Shown here: positions 19,511 to 40,884 of the stretch, in pieces
How the letters are laid out: the number at the start of each line of letters is the position of its first letter
Position numbering within the stretch: the first letter of the stretch is position 1
Virus record (IMG/VR): IMGVR_UViG_3300046171_000168
Location: 1 to 40,884 of that record
Reading direction: 5' to 3' (one strand)
Origin: a virus
Length of the DNA: 40,884 nucleotides
Notes under the pieces: model-generated
What the model was told of the DNA's origin: nothing
What the model saw: only the letters and a program-made list of their open reading frames with translations
Databases searched by the model: none
Translations under genes and position numbers: made by a program

Positions 19511-20926
19511 TCAATAGGGATTGCCGTCGTGCAGCAGGCTGACGCAGCACTCAGGACGCAGGACACCGTGGCCCACAGCGTAAGAGGCAACCATCATGGT
19601 GCTCTGAGTCATGGCTTTGTACTCAGAACCGGTCATCTGCATGGACACGTCCTTCAGAGACACAGTACCGACAGCTTCCTTGGTAAAGCAAAGGCCGAAG
19701 GCATTAGCAATAGAGGAGGTGTTACCCTGCTCATCCTGGAAGTAATCGTTGTTGCCGTCTTGAACACGGCCATCAGAGCCGTCGCGGCCGTTGATGTAGT
19801 TAGGACGCTCACCACGGGTGGTAGCAGCTTGGTTAGCGATACCAGAGTAGGTTTGACCGTTGGTGTAAGCGTTAACACCCAGGTGGTTAGAGGTGATCAG
19901 CTTGAAGCCAGCAGCAGAAGCGACGCGGTTTTCAGCGAAGCTGCCGTTACGACCATCGTTGCCATTGAAGTCAACACTGATAGCGCGATCAGAAGCGAGC
20001 ACGTCATAATAGGCGCCTGGCGAAAGAACGCAAACACGTCCCTCTTTAGGGGCATCTTTTTCGTCGAGAACCTGGCAAGCATTGTACAGGTTGTCGATAA
20101 TCAGATCACCACGGGCGTTGCGGTTAGCAGCACCGTTCAGGTCAATACCGGTGAGAGAAGTACCACCAGGCATAGTGCCGATAACAAACAGACGCTCACC
20201 AACAGTGAAGGTGGCGTTAGAGCCAGTACCGATAGCACCAACAGGGTTGATGACAAAGGTAGCAGCGCCGTTAGTAGGAGCAGTGGTGATGATGCCGTAA
20301 GCACCAGAGTCTTCACCGTAGATGGTGGTGCCAACTGCAAAGCTACCCAGTTCAGCGGTTGCAAAGTTTGCGCTGAGGGTAACAGTGCCGTTAGTGGCAA
20401 CAGAAGAAACAGTACCGCCTGCGGTTTGGAAAGTCTTCTCATCCCAGTCGTTAACACGACCGTCAGACTCAGAAGCAGACAGCAGAGTACGAGCAAGGCG
20501 CTGATCGTATGCACGAGCCAGGGCGCGGCCCAATTCTTGACTGTAAATGCTCCTCACGTCCCAGTGAAGTTTGGCTTCGTCGAGGTCATAGATCGAAGCG
20601 TCGGCAATCAGAAGATCGTCAATGGTGATGATCTTTTCACCGATCATTCCTTTGTTACCTTGGCCAGTAATCCAATCGCCAGGGCGATGGTAGCGGCTGG
20701 AAAAACGACCCGTAATTGGGAAGCTAGCCGAGCGGCCAGATTGAATCGAACGCTTCATGGTCAGGTCTTTGAAGACCGTCTCACGCTCGAACGTAGTGAG
20801 AACCTCACCACTAAAAATTTTCAGGAAATTAGCGTTTTCACGCTCGTAGTTACCGGCTGCGGAGTTGGCGTTAAATTGTGCGCCGTTAATACTACCTAGC
20901 CGGCTAAGAGATGCAAAATCAGGCAT
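19511..20926 (-). CDS. Major capsid protein (T7 gp10-like)
   Basis: This 471-residue protein starts MPDFASLSRLGSINGAQFNA. The HK97-fold signature region of T7-like capsids is clear: FLKIFSGEVLTTFERETVFK, RSIQSGRSASFPITGRFSSR, YHRPGDWITGQG, then IDDLLIADASIYDLDEAKLH. Residues about 170-250 (GGTVSSVATNGTVTLSANFA...) form a Gly/Thr-rich insertion compared with T7. That insertion is likely an extra surface domain. The C-terminal half (VCVLSPGAYYDVLAS, VASAAGFKLITSNHLG) is standard. No clear Shine-Dalgarno is seen before the ATG. The 91-base gap upstream is where T7 places its strongest late promoter, and a terminator follows the gene. Confidence 0.96.
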   Translation of the reverse strand: MPDFASLSRLGSINGAQFNANSAAGNYERENANFLKIFSGEVLTTFERETVFKDLTMKRSIQSGRSASFPITGRFSSRYHRPGDWITGQGNKGMIGEKIITIDDLLIADASIYDLDEAKLHWDVRSIYSQELGRALARAYDQRLARTLLSASESDGRVNDWDEKTFQTAGGTVSSVATNGTVTLSANFATAELGSFAVGTTIYGEDSGAYGIITTAPTNGAATFVINPVGAIGTGSNATFTVGERLFVIGTMPGGTSLTGIDLNGAANRNARGDLIIDNLYNACQVLDEKDAPKEGRVCVLSPGAYYDVLASDRAISVDFNGNDGRNGSFAENRVASAAGFKLITSNHLGVNAYTNGQTYSGIANQAATTRGERPNYINGRDGSDGRVQDGNNDYFQDEQGNTSSIANAFGLCFTKEAVGTVSLKDVSMQMTGSEYKAMTQSTMMVASYAVGHGVLRPECCVSLLHDGNPY

Positions 20927-27332: not shown

Positions 27333-28051
27333 AACTGAAGTTCATCAAAGGTGTACTCGGTGTTCCGAAGGATGCGAGCAAGACGTGCTTGCGTGAGGGC
27401 ATAGTCAGGGCCAAAGCCTTTCTTTTCGTACTGTTTAATTACAGTTCTCCATGCGGAGGCTTCTGTGAAGTCTTCTTCTGGGATGAGTTTTTCCGCTGTC
27501 TTCGGACCAACTCCAGGGCAGCCAGGATACCCGTCAGTGGAATCGCCGGTAAGAACTTGGCGGTAAAAATAAACATCGGCTTCGAGGTCGGAGATGGAGT
27601 AAGTGTTGCCCTCGTTATCAAGATGCAAACCAGGAATCTGTTTCAGGTCTTTGTCACCTGACCAGAGAATGGTTTGTTCTGGATTACGAGTACTCAAAAT
27701 ACCGAGCACATCATCACCTTCCAGATTGAACCAGCACTCTGAGGGATACGCTCCTTCAGCCCAGTTCCTGGTTGCTACAAAACCAACAGGTTTGCGGCGG
27801 TGATAGTTGACACGATTGCCTTTGTAAGTTGGATCAACCTTCTTACGAAAGTTTTCGTTTGAAGTCCAACAAAGGACAACACTGTCAGCTTTGGCTTGCT
27901 TTTGTTTTGCTTCCACAAGCTCAGTAAACATGAGTTTAGCTTGCTTAATTGGAAGATGAGTAGTGATGATGTCAGTCATCCACTCGATCTCTGTCTCGCA
28001 ACTGGCCACTGTCTGATACAGCAGCATGTCTGCATCAAGCAGCAGTTTCAT
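27275..28051 (-). CDS. 5'-3' exonuclease (T7 gp6-like)
   Basis: I chose the ATG at 28051 because it is preceded by a strong Shine-Dalgarno (GGAGG, 8 bases upstream). The protein (258 residues) starts MKLLLDADMLLYQTVA, with metal-binding Asp6 and Asp8. Further FEN/exonuclease residues are NLEGDDVLGIL, LWSGDKDLKQIPG and TGDSTDGYPGCPGVGPKTAE, the last being the helix-hairpin-helix typical of the family. It degrades host DNA and removes RNA primers in T7-like replication. The Thr/Pro-rich tail overlaps the next gene. Confidence 0.92.
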   Translation of the reverse strand: MKLLLDADMLLYQTVASCETEIEWMTDIITTHLPIKQAKLMFTELVEAKQKQAKADSVVLCWTSNENFRKKVDPTYKGNRVNYHRRKPVGFVATRNWAEGAYPSECWFNLEGDDVLGILSTRNPEQTILWSGDKDLKQIPGLHLDNEGNTYSISDLEADVYFYRQVLTGDSTDGYPGCPGVGPKTAEKLIPEEDFTEASAWRTVIKQYEKKGFGPDYALTQARLARILRNTEYTFDELQLWTPLTIPSTPPTTPSTKE

Positions 28052-28526
28052 CGTGGTCACCTCCGTCAATTGATGTCAGCATATTTTTGCGCTCAAGGTA
28101 ATCAAGTGCGTTTAGGACGCCTTGAGTATCGTCCCCAAGCTTGCCAAGTGCGACGTTGCAATCACTGCACAGCCAGCCACGAAACTCCTGTGTTGTGTGG
28201 CAATGATCGAGCACTAGCTTTTTAACTTGACCGCAACATTCACACCTGCTGTTAGCTGGTGGTGGGTTGTGCTGTCGTAATCTTTTGCGATTCTTTACGT
28301 TAATCCTGTTGCAAGATTTGCAATGCGGATACCGACCATCAGCTTTCTGCTTGTCAGCATGAAACTCAGTAAGAGGTTTGTCTTGCTTACAGACCGTGCA
28401 GAACTTAGTGACAATCGGCCCAGTTGTCTCCCACCTTATATTCTGCTGCAATGGGAATCCGTAGGCCGAGGTCTTCCCCGGCAAGTGCAGCTGCTTTGAC
28501 CGCGAGTTCTCCGAGTTGTTGTGCAT
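28035..28526 (-). CDS. Endonuclease VII-like HNH nuclease
   Basis: The folded part starts near 28415. It has two zinc-type cysteine pairs (FCTVCKQDKPLTEF, HCKSC) followed by CECCG, LVLDHCHTTQEFRGWLCSDC and NVALGKLGDD...ALDYLERKN. That is the recombination endonuclease VII signature (His-Cys box). No ATG lies close upstream. An ATG at 28526 would overlap the polymerase by 120 bases, and an ATT at 28415 sits 12 bases after a GGGAG, so the start is uncertain. The end overlaps the exonuclease start. It could be a Holliday-junction nuclease of the phage or a free-standing homing endonuclease beside the polymerase gene. Confidence 0.75.
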   Translation of the reverse strand: MHNNSENSRSKQLHLPGKTSAYGFPLQQNIRWETTGPIVTKFCTVCKQDKPLTEFHADKQKADGRYPHCKSCNRINVKNRKRLRQHNPPPANSRCECCGQVKKLVLDHCHTTQEFRGWLCSDCNVALGKLGDDTQGVLNALDYLERKNMLTSIDGGDHDETAA

Positions 28527-29718
28527 GAGCTTTCTCCACAGAAAATTGAATCTCGTCGTGAATGTGGGCAAGGAAGGTCCAGTGTGTGTCGTACAGCAGC
28601 CCTGCTTTGGTCAATAGCTCAAAGCACCTGATGTACCAGACCTTGCTGATCAACGCTCCTGCCGACTGCAACAAGAAGTTCAAGCTGCTGTGTGCTGAAC
28701 GGATCTGGATCTCACGGCCATCCAAAGCTTTGATATAGCCTTGGCTTTCTGCCTTTTCAGTTACCAGCTTGGTGAGTTTGTCCAAGGCTGGCATGTTTTT
28801 AAAATACTTTCGCTTGAGCTTGCCACCGTCCTGTCCAGTGATCAAGGTCAACTTCTCTGCGCCAGCTCCGTACATCAAGGCGTAGAAAAATGTCTTCGCT
28901 TGATCTCTAGTAGCTAGCCCAGCAGCCTTTTGGTTTGCTGTGTGGATGTCGCCGTGCAACACCTCGTCGGCAAACTTACCGCCATCAAAGGGGTAGGTGT
29001 AGTGAGCCAAACACCGTGCCTCAATCCCGCTGAGGTCAACGCCCACCTGTTTGCGTTTCTTTGAAACGTCAGGTAAAAACAGAGTCCGGCACTCCTTACC
29101 CAGCACTGACCTGACAGCGGGAACCTGGGCTGTATTGGGATGCACGTGGCTACAGCGGGCTGTGGCACAGCCGACAGTGATAACACTGCCGTGCAGTGAG
29201 TGGTCCTCTCCTACGAGTTTGAGCCAGGCGTTGTTACCTGTGCTCAATTGACCTAGCCGTTTTTGGAGTGTGAGGTGTGAAACAAAATCCTCAGCTCCTG
29301 GAATCTTCGACAGAATCGTTTCATCCACCTTCGGTTTACCTGTCTCTGTCAGCTCTTCTGGCTTCCACTCCAGATGAGTTTGCAGAGCCCAAGCAATGTG
29401 ATCTCGTGAGTTGGGGTTCAACTCATCAAGACGACACATAGCCGCATCTTTGATGTAGCCCCGTGTGGAGTTGTCACGCTTTGGTGTGAAGACCCCACCG
29501 TCAACGAACGGGAACCGTTGTCTCAATCGTTCGCTGAGAATATTCAGTTTGTCATTGACCTCGGCTTCCAGCTTGAGCGCTCCTTCAACGTCAAACGGAA
29601 ACCCAGATCGTTCCTGCAGGGAGATCAACTTCGCAAAGTTCATCTCTAGATCCATGGCACAAGGGATGCCTTCGATCTTTGGTTGCAACCGAGTGAAAAG
29701 CTTAGCATTCAAATCCAC
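28405..29718 (-). CDS. DNA polymerase A family, C-terminal polymerase domain (T7 gp5-like; frame broken)
   Basis: This frame holds the polymerase domain. Motif A is VGVDLSGIEARCLAHY, motif B is RDQAKTFFYALMYGAG and motif C is LAHIHDEIQFSV. The stretch SVITVGCATARCSHVHPNTA is also typical of T7-like enzymes. The true N terminus (3'-5' exonuclease) lies in 29878-30144. Between them the reading frame shifts +1 near 29880 and back by -1 near 29790-29796. In the shifted stretch the expected conserved sequence DKDFKRKWPDMPMQMYGRHS, then LEAYGYRLG, is readable, and LSKAHADITDFSTLTPELAE follows in this frame. The reconstructed enzyme is about 579 residues. It replicates the phage genome. Confidence 0.85.
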   Translation of the reverse strand: MDLNAKLFTRLQPKIEGIPCAMDLEMNFAKLISLQERSGFPFDVEGALKLEAEVNDKLNILSERLRQRFPFVDGGVFTPKRDNSTRGYIKDAAMCRLDELNPNSRDHIAWALQTHLEWKPEELTETGKPKVDETILSKIPGAEDFVSHLTLQKRLGQLSTGNNAWLKLVGEDHSLHGSVITVGCATARCSHVHPNTAQVPAVRSVLGKECRTLFLPDVSKKRKQVGVDLSGIEARCLAHYTYPFDGGKFADEVLHGDIHTANQKAAGLATRDQAKTFFYALMYGAGAEKLTLITGQDGGKLKRKYFKNMPALDKLTKLVTEKAESQGYIKALDGREIQIRSAHSSLNFLLQSAGALISKVWYIRCFELLTKAGLLYDTHWTFLAHIHDEIQFSVEKAHAQQLGELAVKAAALAGEDLGLRIPIAAEYKVGDNWADCH

Positions 29719-29877: not shown

Positions 29878-30144
29878 TCAAGGATGTTTGGGATACAACA
29901 TCCGACAAACAATCAACGTGTCAAGCAGGTGCCCCTTTGGTTTAAACCTGGGGTAAACCTGCTGTATGGCAGGCACGTCGTACTGGATGATGTTGTGACC
30001 AACCAGCACATCAGCGTTCTCAAGGATGGGAATCCAAACCTTGGGATCCTCATACAGCTGCGTCTGGTTCCCGTCGTGAATCGCACAGCAGTGAATCGTA
30101 GTAACGTCCCCGATTTTTAGGGCATTTGTCTCGACATCGAACAC
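29878..30144 (-). CDS. DNA polymerase, N-terminal 3'-5' exonuclease part (frame broken)
   Basis: The exonuclease motif I (FDVETNALKIG) and motif II (VLVGHNIIQYDVPAIQQVYP) are clear, followed by HLLDTLIVCRMLYPKHP and a TGA at 29878. The stop arises at CCT-TGA-C. Skipping the T puts the conserved DKDFKRKWPDMP in frame. Start: T7-like cyanophage polymerases begin a few residues before FDVETN, so a GTG at 30144 (or ATT at 30150) is favoured. An ATG at 30234 would add an unusual tail with no family resemblance. If one C near 30151-30153 were extra, an ATG (MILVFDVETN) would appear exactly there. Confidence 0.75.
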   Translation of the reverse strand: MFDVETNALKIGDVTTIHCCAIHDGNQTQLYEDPKVWIPILENADVLVGHNIIQYDVPAIQQVYPRFKPKGHLLDTLIVCRMLYPKHP

Positions 30145-30352
30145 CAGAATCGATGAAGGTTTTGAGTCCGGCTGCGAGAGCTTCGTCAACGAATCGCTCA
30201 AGCCCTTCGTAATTGCAATCGAAACAGAAGTCATTGGATTTGAAATAGGGCCTGCAGAAAACCTTGGCTTCCTCAGTTGTGGCAAGGACAGAAACTTTGC
30301 GCTCGTTCAGTTCACGGATGTGAACGTCAAAAATCGGTTTCAAGAGAATCAT
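30050..30352 (-). CDS. Small protein between primase-helicase and DNA polymerase
   Basis: The ATG at 30352 lies inside the end of the primase-helicase gene. The first 67 residues look like a real protein: MILLKPIFDVHIRELNERKV, SVLATTEEAKVFCRPYFKSN, DFCFDCNYEGLERFVDEALA. After about residue 67 the frame runs across the polymerase exonuclease in another frame and becomes Arg/Cys-rich (CRDKCPKNRGRYYD), which looks like chance. I expect the real gene to end near 30150, either with a lost stop or through an indel that joins it to the polymerase. I do not recognise its family. Confidence 0.5.
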   Translation of the reverse strand: MILLKPIFDVHIRELNERKVSVLATTEEAKVFCRPYFKSNDFCFDCNYEGLERFVDEALAAGLKTFIDSGVRCRDKCPKNRGRYYDSLLCDSRREPDAAV

Positions 30353-36084: not shown

Positions 36085-36118
36085 AAAAAAAAAATACCGC
36101 CCTATTTTTTAGAGCGGT
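36085..36118 (-). terminator. Intrinsic terminator after thyX-HNH
   Basis: On the minus strand ACCGCTCT, a 7-base loop and AGGGCGGT form an 8-bp stem (one G-U pair), followed by A and then ten T residues (36085-36094). The stem overlaps the last codons of the HNH gene. It ends the leftward thyX transcript before island B. Confidence 0.85.
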
Positions 36119-36318
36119 TAGACGATTTTGACTTGACTGACAGGTTACTAAGCCTGTTATCTCGTGGATTACCGTTTTTATGATCTACATCCTTACCAGC
36201 AACAGCGTAACCAGCCTTTGTAGCTTTACGCCTGGCCTTTGTTTCTACTGCTTCTATTAGCCCTTTGTTCCGGTTTGGAGTGGTAGTTATCGTATTCTTT
36301 ACGGTAATTACGGGCCAT
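36102..36318 (-). CDS. Small HNH endonuclease, frameshifted
   Basis: From the ATG at 36318, three bases after the thyX stop, the frame reads MARNYRKEYDNYHSKPEQRA and then RSSRNKGQA, stopping at 36226. Dropping one G at the GG doublet near 36236 gives the expected continuation instead: NKARRKATKAGYAVAGKDVD, then HKNGNPRDNRLSNLSVKSKS. This holds the small phage HNH core (DVDHKNGNPRDNRLSNL). The intact product would be 71 residues. Free-standing HNH genes of this kind often sit between phage genes as homing elements. I favour a sequence error but a decayed gene is possible. Confidence 0.65.
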
Positions 36319-36321
36319 TTG

Positions 36322-36972
36322 TTAAATCCATTCAAGCGCTTTACTAATAATAGGTAATTCCTTGCAAAAAATATCTTTACAACGGTAAGCAACCCTTTGA
36401 TGTTCTAGTTGAGTACCTTTATCAGTACGCAGTTCGATGTAGTGAATCCAGCTTCTAACACTTCCAGCCATGTATAAACGGCTTGGAGTAGCGAGAGGAA
36501 GGACATCTCTTGCTGATTCTTTAGCAATACCGTTACTTACCATCTCTCTGTAGAGGTCTTGAGACTCTTCAAACAGCTGCCCAATGCGTCGGTAATACAT
36601 TTGGGTAGTTTCTAGAGGCAAATCATCGTGACTTGACTGTCTGTTTTTTGTATCTTGCCTACGGAGCTTAGGAACAACGGGATAACCAAGCTCTTTAATG
36701 TCTGCGTATCGCTGGCTGAACTCTTGGAAAGAAAAGCTTCTGTGCCTGAGTAGTTGAGCAGCAATAGACCTAGTGGTGTTGATTTCTAGCACTAGGTGGC
36801 ACATCTCAAAAGGAGACCAATGCTTGTGCTTAATGAGATAACGAATCAACCTTTCTTGATCTTTTTCTTCTCGCTGACTCTTAGGGTTGCTAACCCTAGC
36901 CATATAAACAATGAGATTCTCTGCGTCTGGAGTCTTAGTGATCAAAGAGATCCGATCTTGCGTAATGCTCAC
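36322..36972 (-). CDS. thyX: Flavin-dependent thymidylate synthase
   Basis: The protein has 216 residues, ATG at 36972. The ThyX motif RHR-x7-S is complete (RHRSFSFQEFS, residues 76-86), followed by QRYAD. HKHWSPFEMCHLVLEI upstream and GSVRSWIHYIELRTDKGTQL, HQRVAY downstream are also diagnostic. It makes dTMP from dUMP with methylenetetrahydrofolate, NADPH and FAD, complementing RNR in supplying DNA precursors. It heads its own leftward transcript, with the control region 36973-37198 upstream and a terminator after the following HNH gene. Confidence 0.95.
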   Translation of the reverse strand: MSITQDRISLITKTPDAENLIVYMARVSNPKSQREEKDQERLIRYLIKHKHWSPFEMCHLVLEINTTRSIAAQLLRHRSFSFQEFSQRYADIKELGYPVVPKLRRQDTKNRQSSHDDLPLETTQMYYRRIGQLFEESQDLYREMVSNGIAKESARDVLPLATPSRLYMAGSVRSWIHYIELRTDKGTQLEHQRVAYRCKDIFCKELPIISKALEWI

Positions 36973-37426: not shown

Positions 37427-39181
37427 CTACAGCCCAATCCAGTTAGCACCCCCTCCAGACGCTCCTAGGGCCTTCTGAAGGTCTTCAAGGCTTTGAGCGT
37501 AACCAATAGCATCAATACTTAGACCTTGATCACCCTGGATAAACCTCCGTTCAAGCTCCCACTGTTCTGCGTAACGAGCATCCATAGCTTTCTTTTCTGT
37601 GGTTGCCATGGACTGCGTAAAGTAGTGGACTGCCATTGCAAGGGCATCTAGGCGGTCATCATGCTTGATCGAGTTCTTTTCCTTTGTTATACGGGTCAAC
37701 TGCCAGAACAGTTGGTATTGAGATCTAGTTTCACCTGGATAGCATTCCGTGGATCTCAGATCCTCTGCGATTATGTCAGTGTCAATCATGAGCCTGTGCT
37801 GGTTCATGACCGGCTCAAGGGTGTCAATAATCCTGACTTCTTTCTGTTTGTTGTGTCGGACCTCTTCGATGGAGCAGGGATAGATGGTGCCCAAATAGCG
37901 CTTCAGAAGTTCGCTGAACATACCGAGGCCAAGGTTGCTTTCAACGATTATTTGTTTGACCTCATACTCTTTGGCGAGAAGAGCGAGCTTTTTAAGGTTC
38001 GGCTCGCTGTAACCGCCTCTAAGGCCCCCAGAAGCAAGGAGAAACAGATTGCCGTTAAGGTAGGCCACTACGGCGTACCCAAGCTCGTCAGAGCCCCTTC
38101 CAGAGGGGTCTACGGCCATAACTACACCCGTATAGTCAAGAAACTCCGAACCAATTTGAGCAGGTTTGTAAAACAGATCACCATGCAGTCCAACGGACGG
38201 TAGATCCAGTGCTTTATCACCGTTAGCCAGCCAAACCACTTTGTCAGGGCCTTGCTTACGGTTTAAACGGAACACACAAAGGTCACGCAGCTTGAGTGGG
38301 TATTTCTCCTCATCACTCAGGCTGATGTCCAGCAGAAACTGCAGGTTAAACGTTGATTTACCGATTGATTGCTGTCGAGCCTCCAGCTCTTCCCAACCAA
38401 AACGTCCGGGGTCTACAGGGTGACCAGCCAAGCTTTTATCATCAGCAAGGTCTGTACAAAGCTTTGGAGCTAGTCGATCACCGTAGTAGTTCTTGTGCTT
38501 CTTAGCTGTGGGATACAGAGCAGGCCAGATGCGGCATTTGTAGCCAGCAAGCTCTAGCTTTGCGTAAATCGAATCTTGCGTGTGTGGAGTACCGAGAAAC
38601 ACAATCTCACCACCAGGCTTAATCACCGAGTCAAACTCTTTGATTGATTCCCGCAGTTTGTCTCGAATCAGTTGCGTTTCGCACGACTGCGGGGTCTCTA
38701 CGTCATCAGCAACAATTAGATCTGCACGAGAACCAGTGATCTGGCCAAAGATGCCGCTAGAGCGCACTGACGGGCTCTGGTCAGGCTTTGCTCCGTAGAC
38801 ATCAAACGCAACCTTTGAGAAGCGTTGGGTATCGCTAGGAAACAGGTCTTTGACCATGAACCAGTTACGCAGCAAGTCGTGGCAAAACACTGAGAACGCG
38901 TCTGCACGGTCTTGTGCTGCAGAGATCACCAACACCTTTGTGTCTGGGTCTCTACGCAGTCTCCACAGCACGTAACCAGCTGTTAGGAACGATTTACCGC
39001 AGCCACGGTACGCCATGATGATGCGGCGATCAGGACCGTGCTGCAGGTAGTCAGCTAGTTGATATTGGACTGGAGTAGGACTAGGAAGCCGCAGGTAGTG
39101 CCAGAGGTGTGTAGCAAAGACTGGAAAACTAGCTACAGCTTCCTTAATTATCTTTTCAGTCTGTAGGTTTTTTCTTGGCAC
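37427..39181 (-). CDS. terL: Terminase large subunit (T7 gp19-like)
   Basis: The protein has 584 residues; the start is a GTG at 39181, since no ATG is available before the conserved region. The ATPase shows Walker A at about 57-65 (AYRGCGKSFL) and Walker B ADLIVADDVETPQ, with the coupling segment IVFLGTPHTQDSIYAKL. The nuclease domain has VVMAVDPSGRGSDELGYAVV, KQIIVESNLGLGMFSELLKR and HDDRLDALAMAVHYF. It packages and cuts concatemeric DNA. It overlaps the nblA-like gene by 26 bases upstream. Confidence 0.95.
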   Translation of the reverse strand: MPRKNLQTEKIIKEAVASFPVFATHLWHYLRLPSPTPVQYQLADYLQHGPDRRIIMAYRGCGKSFLTAGYVLWRLRRDPDTKVLVISAAQDRADAFSVFCHDLLRNWFMVKDLFPSDTQRFSKVAFDVYGAKPDQSPSVRSSGIFGQITGSRADLIVADDVETPQSCETQLIRDKLRESIKEFDSVIKPGGEIVFLGTPHTQDSIYAKLELAGYKCRIWPALYPTAKKHKNYYGDRLAPKLCTDLADDKSLAGHPVDPGRFGWEELEARQQSIGKSTFNLQFLLDISLSDEEKYPLKLRDLCVFRLNRKQGPDKVVWLANGDKALDLPSVGLHGDLFYKPAQIGSEFLDYTGVVMAVDPSGRGSDELGYAVVAYLNGNLFLLASGGLRGGYSEPNLKKLALLAKEYEVKQIIVESNLGLGMFSELLKRYLGTIYPCSIEEVRHNKQKEVRIIDTLEPVMNQHRLMIDTDIIAEDLRSTECYPGETRSQYQLFWQLTRITKEKNSIKHDDRLDALAMAVHYFTQSMATTEKKAMDARYAEQWELERRFIQGDQGLSIDAIGYAQSLEDLQKALGASGGGANWIGL

Positions 39182-39377
39182 GGCCTGCCCACTTAATTAC
39201 GTGACTTAGGTTGTTTTGCAACACCAAAGTCATTTTGACGAACTCTAGCGCCAATTCCTGTAGCTCTTCTCTAGGGACATCAGGCAGCTCCCGCTTCATA
39301 CGCTCTAGGCGCAGTTGCTGCTCCATTGATAACTCAAGGAGGGGGGCAGGAGGGACATCCACTTCGTAATCTTCCAT
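39156..39377 (-). CDS. nblA: NblA-like phycobilisome degradation protein
   Basis: The 73-residue protein contains LELSMEQQLRLERMKREL, then REELQELALEFVKMTLVLQN and NLSHVIKWA. The order ELS-x-EQQ, a first helix, RE-x-x-QE-x-L, then a second helix with a Met/Val-rich face and NL matches cellular NblA (about 55-60 residues). NblA is the adaptor that targets phycobilisomes to Clp protease. N- and C-terminal extensions make this copy slightly longer. Phage nblA genes are known in freshwater cyanophages and in uncultured marine ones. Here it overlaps the HNH gene upstream and terL downstream, so it is expressed with late packaging genes. The host should contain phycobilisomes. Confidence 0.75.
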   Translation of the reverse strand: MEDYEVDVPPAPLLELSMEQQLRLERMKRELPDVPREELQELALEFVKMTLVLQNNLSHVIKWAGRAKKKPTD

Positions 39378-39694
39378 TCTCTAGTTGCTGAATAGCTTTC
39401 GTGATCTCTGTACCATAGCTGCCATTGTTGACTTCCTTTATCTTGGTTGCAACATTGACAAGCTGGCACAAGGTTGGTTGCAACATCTCCGCCACCTTTA
39501 CAACGTGGTCTGATGTGATCAAGAGTCAGTGTTTCAGCTTGTACTCCGCAATATGCACATCTGTTTTGAAAGGCATCTTTGATTCCTTGTTTCCATAATT
39601 TAACTGCCTCTCGACGTTGTAAAGACTGGAGATTGGCCATAGCGCCATCGGGGGTCATATACACAAAACCCCCAGCAGGCGAGTAAATCACCAT
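39305..39694 (-). CDS. HNH endonuclease
   Basis: This 129-residue protein starts MVIYSPAGGFVYMTPDGAMA; a start at 39640 (MANLQSLQRR) is possible. The HNH core is clear: NRCAYCGVQAETLTLDHIRP, then RCKGGGDVATNLVPACQCCN, QDKGSQQW. There are two zinc-type pairs (CxxC, CxxC) around DHI and N. It is commonly found in cyanophages near terminase or nucleotide genes. A role in packaging is possible since HNH proteins can work with terminase, but it may be a homing endonuclease. The C-terminal end overlaps the nblA-like gene by 73 bases. Confidence 0.85.
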   Translation of the reverse strand: MVIYSPAGGFVYMTPDGAMANLQSLQRREAVKLWKQGIKDAFQNRCAYCGVQAETLTLDHIRPRCKGGGDVATNLVPACQCCNQDKGSQQWQLWYRDHESYSATREWKITKWMSLLPPSLSYQWSSNCA

Positions 39695-39733: not shown

Positions 39734-40006
39734 CTAAGCACCAATATAAGACCTAACTTTCTTCAAGTCCACATCTGGAAGTGCAGAAATCATTTCAGAA
39801 ATAGCAGAGACATCACCACCGTTAAGAGCAGTAATACCCTGGTCTTTTAGAAACTTAATTGCGTTAGCCAGGTCAGATGCTTTTACATCTTCACGGTTAA
39901 GTTGATCAATTAGCTTCATTGCAACCAAACGGTGCAAGCTATACAAATCGTCCTCAGATGCAAGACCTTCGGATTTATTTAGAGATTTTTTTGGAGAAGC
40001 TGCCAT
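39734..40006 (-). CDS. terS: Terminase small subunit (T7 gp18-like)
   Basis: The protein has 90 residues; T7 gp18 has 89. It begins MAASPKKSLNKSEGLASEDD and has a helical core (LYSLHRLVAMKLIDQLNRED, VKASDLANAIKFLKDQGITA) typical of small terminases in T7-like cyanophages. It recognises the packaging site and guides the large subunit. Its start overlaps the holin-like gene by 32 bases. An HNH and an nblA-like gene separate it from terL, unlike in T7, where a small spanin pair does. Confidence 0.7.
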   Translation of the reverse strand: MAASPKKSLNKSEGLASEDDLYSLHRLVAMKLIDQLNREDVKASDLANAIKFLKDQGITALNGGDVSAISEMISALPDVDLKKVRSYIGA

Positions 40007-40139
40007 AAAGTACCTTGAACGCTTTCAATCCCAATTGTACGAGACCGTTTTCTTTTAGTTTGGATGCACCGATCAATTCGGATACAACAAAAGCAAGTGA
40101 CCAAAGAGCGGCCACAACAGTAGGGTCAGAGAAATCCAT
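39975..40139 (-). CDS. Holin-like small membrane protein, 54 aa
   Basis: I chose the ATG at 40139, two bases after the endolysin stop. The protein starts MDFSDPTVVAALWSLAFVVS, then ELIGASKLKENGLVQLGLKA and FKVLYGSFSKKISK. It has one hydrophobic helix at about residues 7-25, a second amphipathic segment and a basic C terminus. Such proteins (ending in KENG-x-VQL) recur after endolysins in cyanophages. The layout fits a holin that opens the inner membrane for the GH19 endolysin. No experimental holin signature can be read from sequence alone. Confidence 0.55.
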   Translation of the reverse strand: MDFSDPTVVAALWSLAFVVSELIGASKLKENGLVQLGLKAFKVLYGSFSKKISK

Positions 40140-40141
40140 AG

Positions 40142-40849
40142 TTAAAAGATGCAAAGCTGTGCTCGTTCCCAATAATAAACACGATCGTCAATACCGTTTA
40201 GACCGCCGTTTAACCGTCGTGTAGCGGCGTAAACATCACCATTCCTACAAACGCTGAAGTAATCGTTATCTGTAATCCACTTGTAAGCACAGAGAAACGG
40301 ATATTTATCAGCGGTATAGTCTGTGCCTATCTCCATAATTTTTGGATCTGGCGTACCACGCTCAGTCATCCAATCACTAAACGCCTGGTGATTTGCACGT
40401 CCAGTTAGCTGAATAGGGCCACAACCACGAAACTTAGGGCCGTCACCAGAATAAACATTCCCAAGATCATTTCGACCATTTAGGTATTCTCCAGAATCTA
40501 TCTCTTTCATATAAACGAAACCGGCACTTTCGTGTGCCATCTGTGCTACAAGCATCTGCCTTGCAACCAAACTTTCACTAAAACCTGTGGCGTTAAACAA
40601 CGCCTGCATATCATCTAGAAACCGATAATCAAAAGCTTCCTCATCGTGACCAGTTAGTTTGGCCAGCATTAAACCTGTGACTTGATGCTCCAGTCGAACA
40701 GGGGTTTGCTTAGGACCAGAACGCCAAAGGTCAGCAAATTTAGCCAGTACACCAGGCGATGTGTGGTCTTGCAGGAAATCTAGAGCGTCGTTTTGGTGTG
40801 GCTTTTCGTTGTAGTACTTCGCAACATCACGAAGAGAGATGTCGGCCAT
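40142..40849 (-). CDS. GH19 chitinase-family endolysin
   Basis: I chose the ATG at 40849 (MADISLRDVAKYYNEKPHQN), giving 235 residues. The catalytic GH19 segment is visible: AQMAHESAGF (Glu107) and MKEIDSGEYLNGR (Glu116 or Glu121 as second acid). Then DGPKFRGCGPIQLTGRANH follows, with ADKYPFLCAYKWI and RRLNGGLNGIDDR downstream. In the family the motif is usually FRGRGPIQLTGR; here the second Arg is Cys143. Many phage lysins have this fold and cut the glycan backbone of peptidoglycan. It lies between the N-terminally anchored small protein and the holin-like gene, consistent with a lysis cassette. Confidence 0.88.
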   Translation of the reverse strand: MADISLRDVAKYYNEKPHQNDALDFLQDHTSPGVLAKFADLWRSGPKQTPVRLEHQVTGLMLAKLTGHDEEAFDYRFLDDMQALFNATGFSESLVARQMLVAQMAHESAGFVYMKEIDSGEYLNGRNDLGNVYSGDGPKFRGCGPIQLTGRANHQAFSDWMTERGTPDPKIMEIGTDYTADKYPFLCAYKWITDNDYFSVCRNGDVYAATRRLNGGLNGIDDRVYYWERAQLCIF

Positions 40850-40884
40850 TGAGCAAGATCCGATCGAGTTTTTCATCAATGCGC
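40827..40884 (-). CDS. Small membrane-anchored protein, 3' part (continues from 1-176)
   Basis: Joining the end of the minus strand at position 1 to the start at 40884 completes a codon (CT plus G). The reading continues RIDEKLDRILLNGRHLSS, then TGA at 40827-40829. The DEKLDRIL heptad continues the charged helix begun before the junction. The join works without any gap or frame change, which argues that the window is a closed circle. The stop lies 23 bases inside the endolysin gene. Confidence 0.65.
   Translation of the reverse strand, partial: RIDEKLDRILLNGRHLSS

Follow-up and report, generated by a model that had tools for sequence, protein, structure and literature searches.

An NblA-family gene, probably gained once, at the terminase locus of a P-RSP2-like lineage of T7-type cyanophages

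In the IMG/VR virus record IMGVR_UViG_3300046171_000168, which we analyzed over its full length of 40,884 bases (the window), a short open reading frame resembling nblA lies among the packaging genes, raising the question of whether it is a true nblA, how it came to this site, and what it would do to the host. NblA acts as a ClpC adaptor for phycobilisome proteins; its dimers form four-helix bundles and deliver antenna proteins to the Clp protease (PMC7966870). Phage-borne nblA is already known, also from T7-like cyanophages, where it follows the exonuclease gene: PMC9602691 credits Nadel et al. (2019) with predicting nblA in 14 cyanopodovirus isolates, and PMC12892361, citing Nadel et al. 2025, describes NblA as encoded by many oceanic cyanophages.

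The sequence-only reading of this DNA had placed the gene at positions 39156 to 39377, between an HNH endonuclease gene and the large terminase gene terL and overlapping both. These coordinates are correct and the frame is real; the gene lies on the minus strand (Table 1), while the plus strand of this segment is full of stops. The order on the minus strand is endolysin-like gene, short ORF, terS, HNH gene, nblA, and terL. The HNH gene adjoins nblA directly upstream, and the nblA frame shares 73 bp with its 3′ end and 26 bp with the 5′ end of terL, which bears out the position claimed. The ATG at 39377 is present in the record and its nearest kin. An alternative GTG start at 39362 yields a protein of 68 aa that aligns with the 'MDELPP...' beginning of most relatives in the wider clade, so that we give the protein length as 68 or 73 aa; the alignment suggests that the shorter form may be the correct one. 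No convincing Shine-Dalgarno sequence was found at either start, and promoter and terminator scans of the record remained at chance level. The gene is under purifying selection, with a median pairwise dN/dS of 0.14 (interquartile range 0.09–0.19) among 56 distinct nblA core sequences and a value of 0.20 in the middle part, picked to fall largely outside the overlaps with HNH and terL. On the grounds of conservation and dN/dS, we reject an ORF artefact.

Table 1. Features of the packaging locus in the 40,884-base record.
Feature	Positions	Strand	Description and matches
terL, T7-type large terminase	37427-39181	minus	584 aa, GTG start; PF22530, E 6e-39; phrog_38, E 4e-108
nblA ORF	39156-39377	minus (39377 to 39156)	ATG start, 73 aa, MEDYEVDVPPAPLLELSMEQQLRLERMKRELPDVPREELQELALEFVKMTLVLQNNLSHVIKWAGRAKKKPTD
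HNH endonuclease gene	39305-39694	minus	PF14279 and PF01844 above cut-off; phrog_2214, E 2e-30
terS, small terminase (DNA_Packaging_2)	39734-40006	minus	intact; PF11123, E 5e-13; phrog_891
Short ORF	39975-40172	minus	
Endolysin/chitinase-like gene, upstream of terS	40142-40879	minus	phrog_9506, E 6e-28; phrog_181

The assignment to NblA was checked by HMM search, as the sequence-only reading had proposed, and the Pfam NblA model (PF04485) matched above its cut-off of 25 with 30.7 bits (E 4e-7), residues 15–62 aligning with profile positions 1–48 of 50. No other NblA match occurred in the 40,884-base record. Among 31 aligned phage relatives, 29 matched NblA individually, and NblA was the only consistent family in the alignment. 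The phage proteins scored 25–31 bits with PF04485, near the cut-off, and are therefore divergent; identity between subclades of the one phage lineage is 51–61%. A profile built from the alignment of the 31 phage relatives recovered all four solved NblA sequences (3cs5, 2q8v, 1ojh, and 2qdo), the best being 3cs5 of Synechococcus elongatus (E 7e-11). The N-terminus of the latter, LPPLPDFSLSVEQQF, aligns with the phage LPPMP...LSxEQQ, and its LPPLP...EQQ N-terminus and two-helix region align end to end. In reverse searches of cyanobacterial genomes, the same profile found NblA in 125 of 291. Among the key positions named in the sequence-only reading (ELS-x-EQQ, QE, and NL), EQ and the asparagine of 'NL' occur in every sequence of the phage alignment, but 'QE' is not conserved. 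No PHROGs family matched the ORF (best E 0.26), so that a PHROG-based annotation would miss the gene. Judged by these profile matches, the ORF is to be regarded as a true NblA-family gene.

AlphaFold, given single chains of the record's protein together with its metagenomic relatives only, predicted helices at residues 18–30 and 36–67 (mean pLDDT 83, pTM 0.57), with a mean pLDDT of 92–95 across residues 21–50. At 68 or 73 aa and with two predicted helices, the protein has the format of a small helix-loop-helix protein of about 60 aa. A Foldseek comparison with the PDB gave no significant match, NblA included (best E 1.8); two helices may be too little for the method, which was run with no positive control, and we count this outcome neither for nor against NblA, so that the identity of the fold rests on sequence.

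Portal, scaffold, major head protein, tail proteins, primase/helicase, DNA polymerase, exonuclease, ribonucleotide reductase, and ThyX mark the record as a T7-type phage. Together with its nearest isolate, P-RSP2, a Prochlorococcus phage, these genes place the nblA in a T7-type cyanophage. No direct terminal repeats were found in the 40,884-base IMG/VR record, which may therefore be incomplete. Elsewhere in the record, the DNA polymerase is split into a polymerase part (28405–29718) and an exonuclease part (29878–30285) with an adjoining endonuclease VII ORF (28035–28571); notes in the S-TIP37 record likewise mention a split or frameshifted polymerase. An HNH_3 ORF lies over the end of the thyX gene (36102–36392 and 36322–36972). 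A 456-codon open frame (19529–20899) with no Pfam match runs antisense to the major head protein gene and is probably a by-product of codon use.

Compared with this phage, the cyanophages S-TIP37, S-RIP2, KBS-P-1A, S-SBP1, S-CBP1/3/4, and P-SSP2, likewise T7-like and Autographiviridae, encode proteins of the same NblA family and similar length, with the N-terminal PP..EQ motif and the N...W positions in common. In those phages, however, the nblA ORF lies in the DNA-metabolism region and overlaps the exonuclease gene at its 3′ end, whereas in the record it lies between HNH and terL and does not adjoin an exonuclease gene, a difference that concerns position and not family. By tblastn, we found NblA ORFs at the exonuclease 3′ end of T7-like Synechococcus phages that are unannotated or 'hypothetical' in GenBank. 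In the unrooted NblA tree of 67 columns, in which the Prochlorococcus/Synechococcus family is not represented, the terL-linked proteins formed a group (support 100/98), as did the exonuclease-linked proteins, which are the nearest group to those of the record. Both phage groups jointly stood apart from 39 sampled cyanobacterial NblAs (99/92). We also considered recent acquisition from a host; all sampled cyanobacterial NblAs fell outside the phage group in this 67-column unrooted tree. The cyanobacterial NblA of the S. elongatus type differs from the phage gene in being a host gene for nutrient starvation. The Microcystis phages Ma-LMM01 and MaMV-DC also carry nblA, but these are large myoviruses whose nblA resembles the Microcystis-type host NblA (42% identity), and our search with the record's NblA did not recover them.

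How the gene came to this site was approached through three terL-based IMG/VR scans, taking from each at most 80 of the closest terL relatives and reducing them to distinct terL 5′ sequences. The order terS-HNH-nblA-terL occurred in at least 63 distinct relatives, whose terL is 86–100% identical to that of the record (G+C of the loci 42–49%). In at least 5 distinct relatives, P-RSP2 among them, HNH is present and nblA missing (G+C 33–35%), and in at least 29 terS abuts terL with neither gene between them (G+C 37–43%); two loci among the terL relatives listed were incomplete. P-RSP2 is the closest isolate (terL 86% identical in aa) and has the same terS-HNH-terL order, but unlike the record it lacks nblA, and its G+C in the region compared is 34% versus 46% in the record. 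Searches with the Pfam and phage profiles detected no NblA in P-RSP2 (42,257 bases) or in one 39,031-base record with abutting terS and terL. The description of the gene as inserted in the sequence-only reading is thus supported by sister lineages with the same locus and no nblA. The terS-terL junction was found in three forms, empty, with HNH alone, and with both HNH and nblA, and would thus be a small site of gene gain. Among the relatives listed, the nblA-bearing sequences form one clade on the terL tree (support 100/100), for which one gain with no observed loss suffices. The best explanation is therefore that a P-RSP2-like T7-type lineage gained nblA once. As to whether the HNH gene was gained once by the nblA clade and P-RSP2 together, the AU test gave p = 0.46 for the joint clade.

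The sequence-only reading had further taken the gene to limit the host to phycobilisome-bearing cyanobacteria, a claim that we do not maintain, as the gene by itself sets no such limit. Prochlorococcus, to which the isolation host of P-RSP2 (MIT9302) belongs, has no phycobilisomes. The absence of nblA from P-RSP2 thus fits a pattern in which nblA is found where the host has a degradable antenna, the G+C values being only a hint. Among 151 genomes whose membership in the Prochlorococcus/Synechococcus family is inferred (phycobilisome-family genes in 145), Pfam NblA scored above cut-off in one, and that frame reached 5 bits with the phage profile. The best match to the phage profile in this set (46 bits) lies on a 41,955-base contig beside frames whose translations resemble MazG and a T7-type exonuclease, and therefore probably belongs to phage DNA. 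Four of the presumed family genomes contain short host frames that follow the pattern LSLESNFELERIKRSIDAMDDLELLKHLAKQ and score weakly (about 11–24 bits) against the NblA models; they may be distant NblA relatives belonging to these hosts. Judging from these searches, the likely hosts would rarely have a recognizable nblA of their own, and compatibility of the phage protein with host ClpC and antenna is therefore assumed.

Taken together, we consider it likely that the ORF encodes a phage NblA, a ClpC adaptor for phycobilisome proteolysis, gained once in a P-RSP2-like T7-type clade; the virus very probably carries with it a gene that turns the host protease on the light-harvesting antennae. 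The phage NblA would form a helix-loop-helix dimer binding both the host phycobiliproteins of the phycobilisome and the host chaperone ClpC, whereupon the Clp protease would dismantle the antenna, with the result that amino acids would become available and less light would be captured during infection. The common ancestor of the clade would have taken up nblA once, beside HNH at the terS-terL junction, and the sampled descendants would have retained it. Dimerization, binding of phycobiliproteins and ClpC, and degradation are inferred from the NblA family, for which loss of phycobilin was reported upon expression of metagenomic and freshwater cyanophage NblAs (PMC9602691). The function proposed in the sequence-only reading, dismantling of the antennae to supply amino acids for virions, is plausible. 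S-TIP37 carries a T7-type RNA polymerase and psbA; in contrast, neither the polymerase (PF00940) nor psbA was found in the record, P-RSP2, or three other long P-RSP2-like records, and the absence of psbA from P-RSP2 has been noted before (PMC4646655). Hence, the T7 class rules, and with them the late timing proposed in that reading, cannot simply be transferred to this phage, nor can a partnership of psbA and nblA be assumed.

The position of the gene also invites quite different readings. Lying between terS/HNH and terL and overlapping the latter, to which it may be translationally coupled, the ORF could encode a terminase helper or regulator that is merely NblA-like. This is highly improbable, given that terS is separate and intact, that such a gene is missing from P-RSP2 and at least 29 other distinct relatives, whose terS and terL are of the same type, and that NblA is the only consistent family match. 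A small terminase of the T7 gp18 type was rejected, since DNA_Packaging_2 has no match in the NblA ORF and does match the separate terS. We give next to no weight to a frame arising by chance where two real genes overlap, which the shortness of the ORF and its overlap with both neighbors might suggest: it is kept in at least 63 distinct loci, with dN/dS of 0.14 (0.20 in the middle part), and its family match exceeds the curated cut-off.

A ClpC adaptor with the NblA fold might instead have changed its cargo and deliver other host proteins, such as a defence factor or a photosystem or regulatory protein, in place of or besides phycobiliproteins. The protein is divergent, with 51–61% identity even between subclades of one lineage, and forms its own well-supported group (100/98), while psbA was not found in the clade records tested, giving no sign of photosystem II maintenance alongside. 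Viral NblA is also said, in work by Nadel and colleagues from 2025, to affect further host proteins. The PP..EQ motif and the N...W positions, however, are common to the exonuclease-linked phage NblAs, and phycobilin loss was reported for a metagenomic cyanophage NblA (PMC9602691), and we regard such a change of cargo as rather improbable. A further reading, also unlikely but slightly less so, would be a stable T7-type branch, with psbA and phage RNA polymerase absent from the records tested, that brings a divergent Clp adaptor within its packaging module to hosts mostly lacking a recognizable nblA and uses it to point the host Clp protease at targets outside the phycobilisome, whether in addition to it or in its place.

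What is new at this locus is where nblA lies, that psbA and a phage RNA polymerase were not found, and that sister phages have an empty site. In the literature that we covered, we found no earlier description of nblA in the P-RSP2-like lineage. Viral NblA is a recognized route by which cyanophages reduce light harvesting of the host; one review cites an estimate that it affects as much as 5% of the light captured by photosynthesis worldwide (PMC12892361). The locus described here extends nblA to the P-RSP2-like lineage and to a second genome position. Sister phages whose packaging genes are closely related, some carrying nblA and others lacking it, provide a natural comparison by which it can be tested how the gene benefits the phage, and for which hosts.
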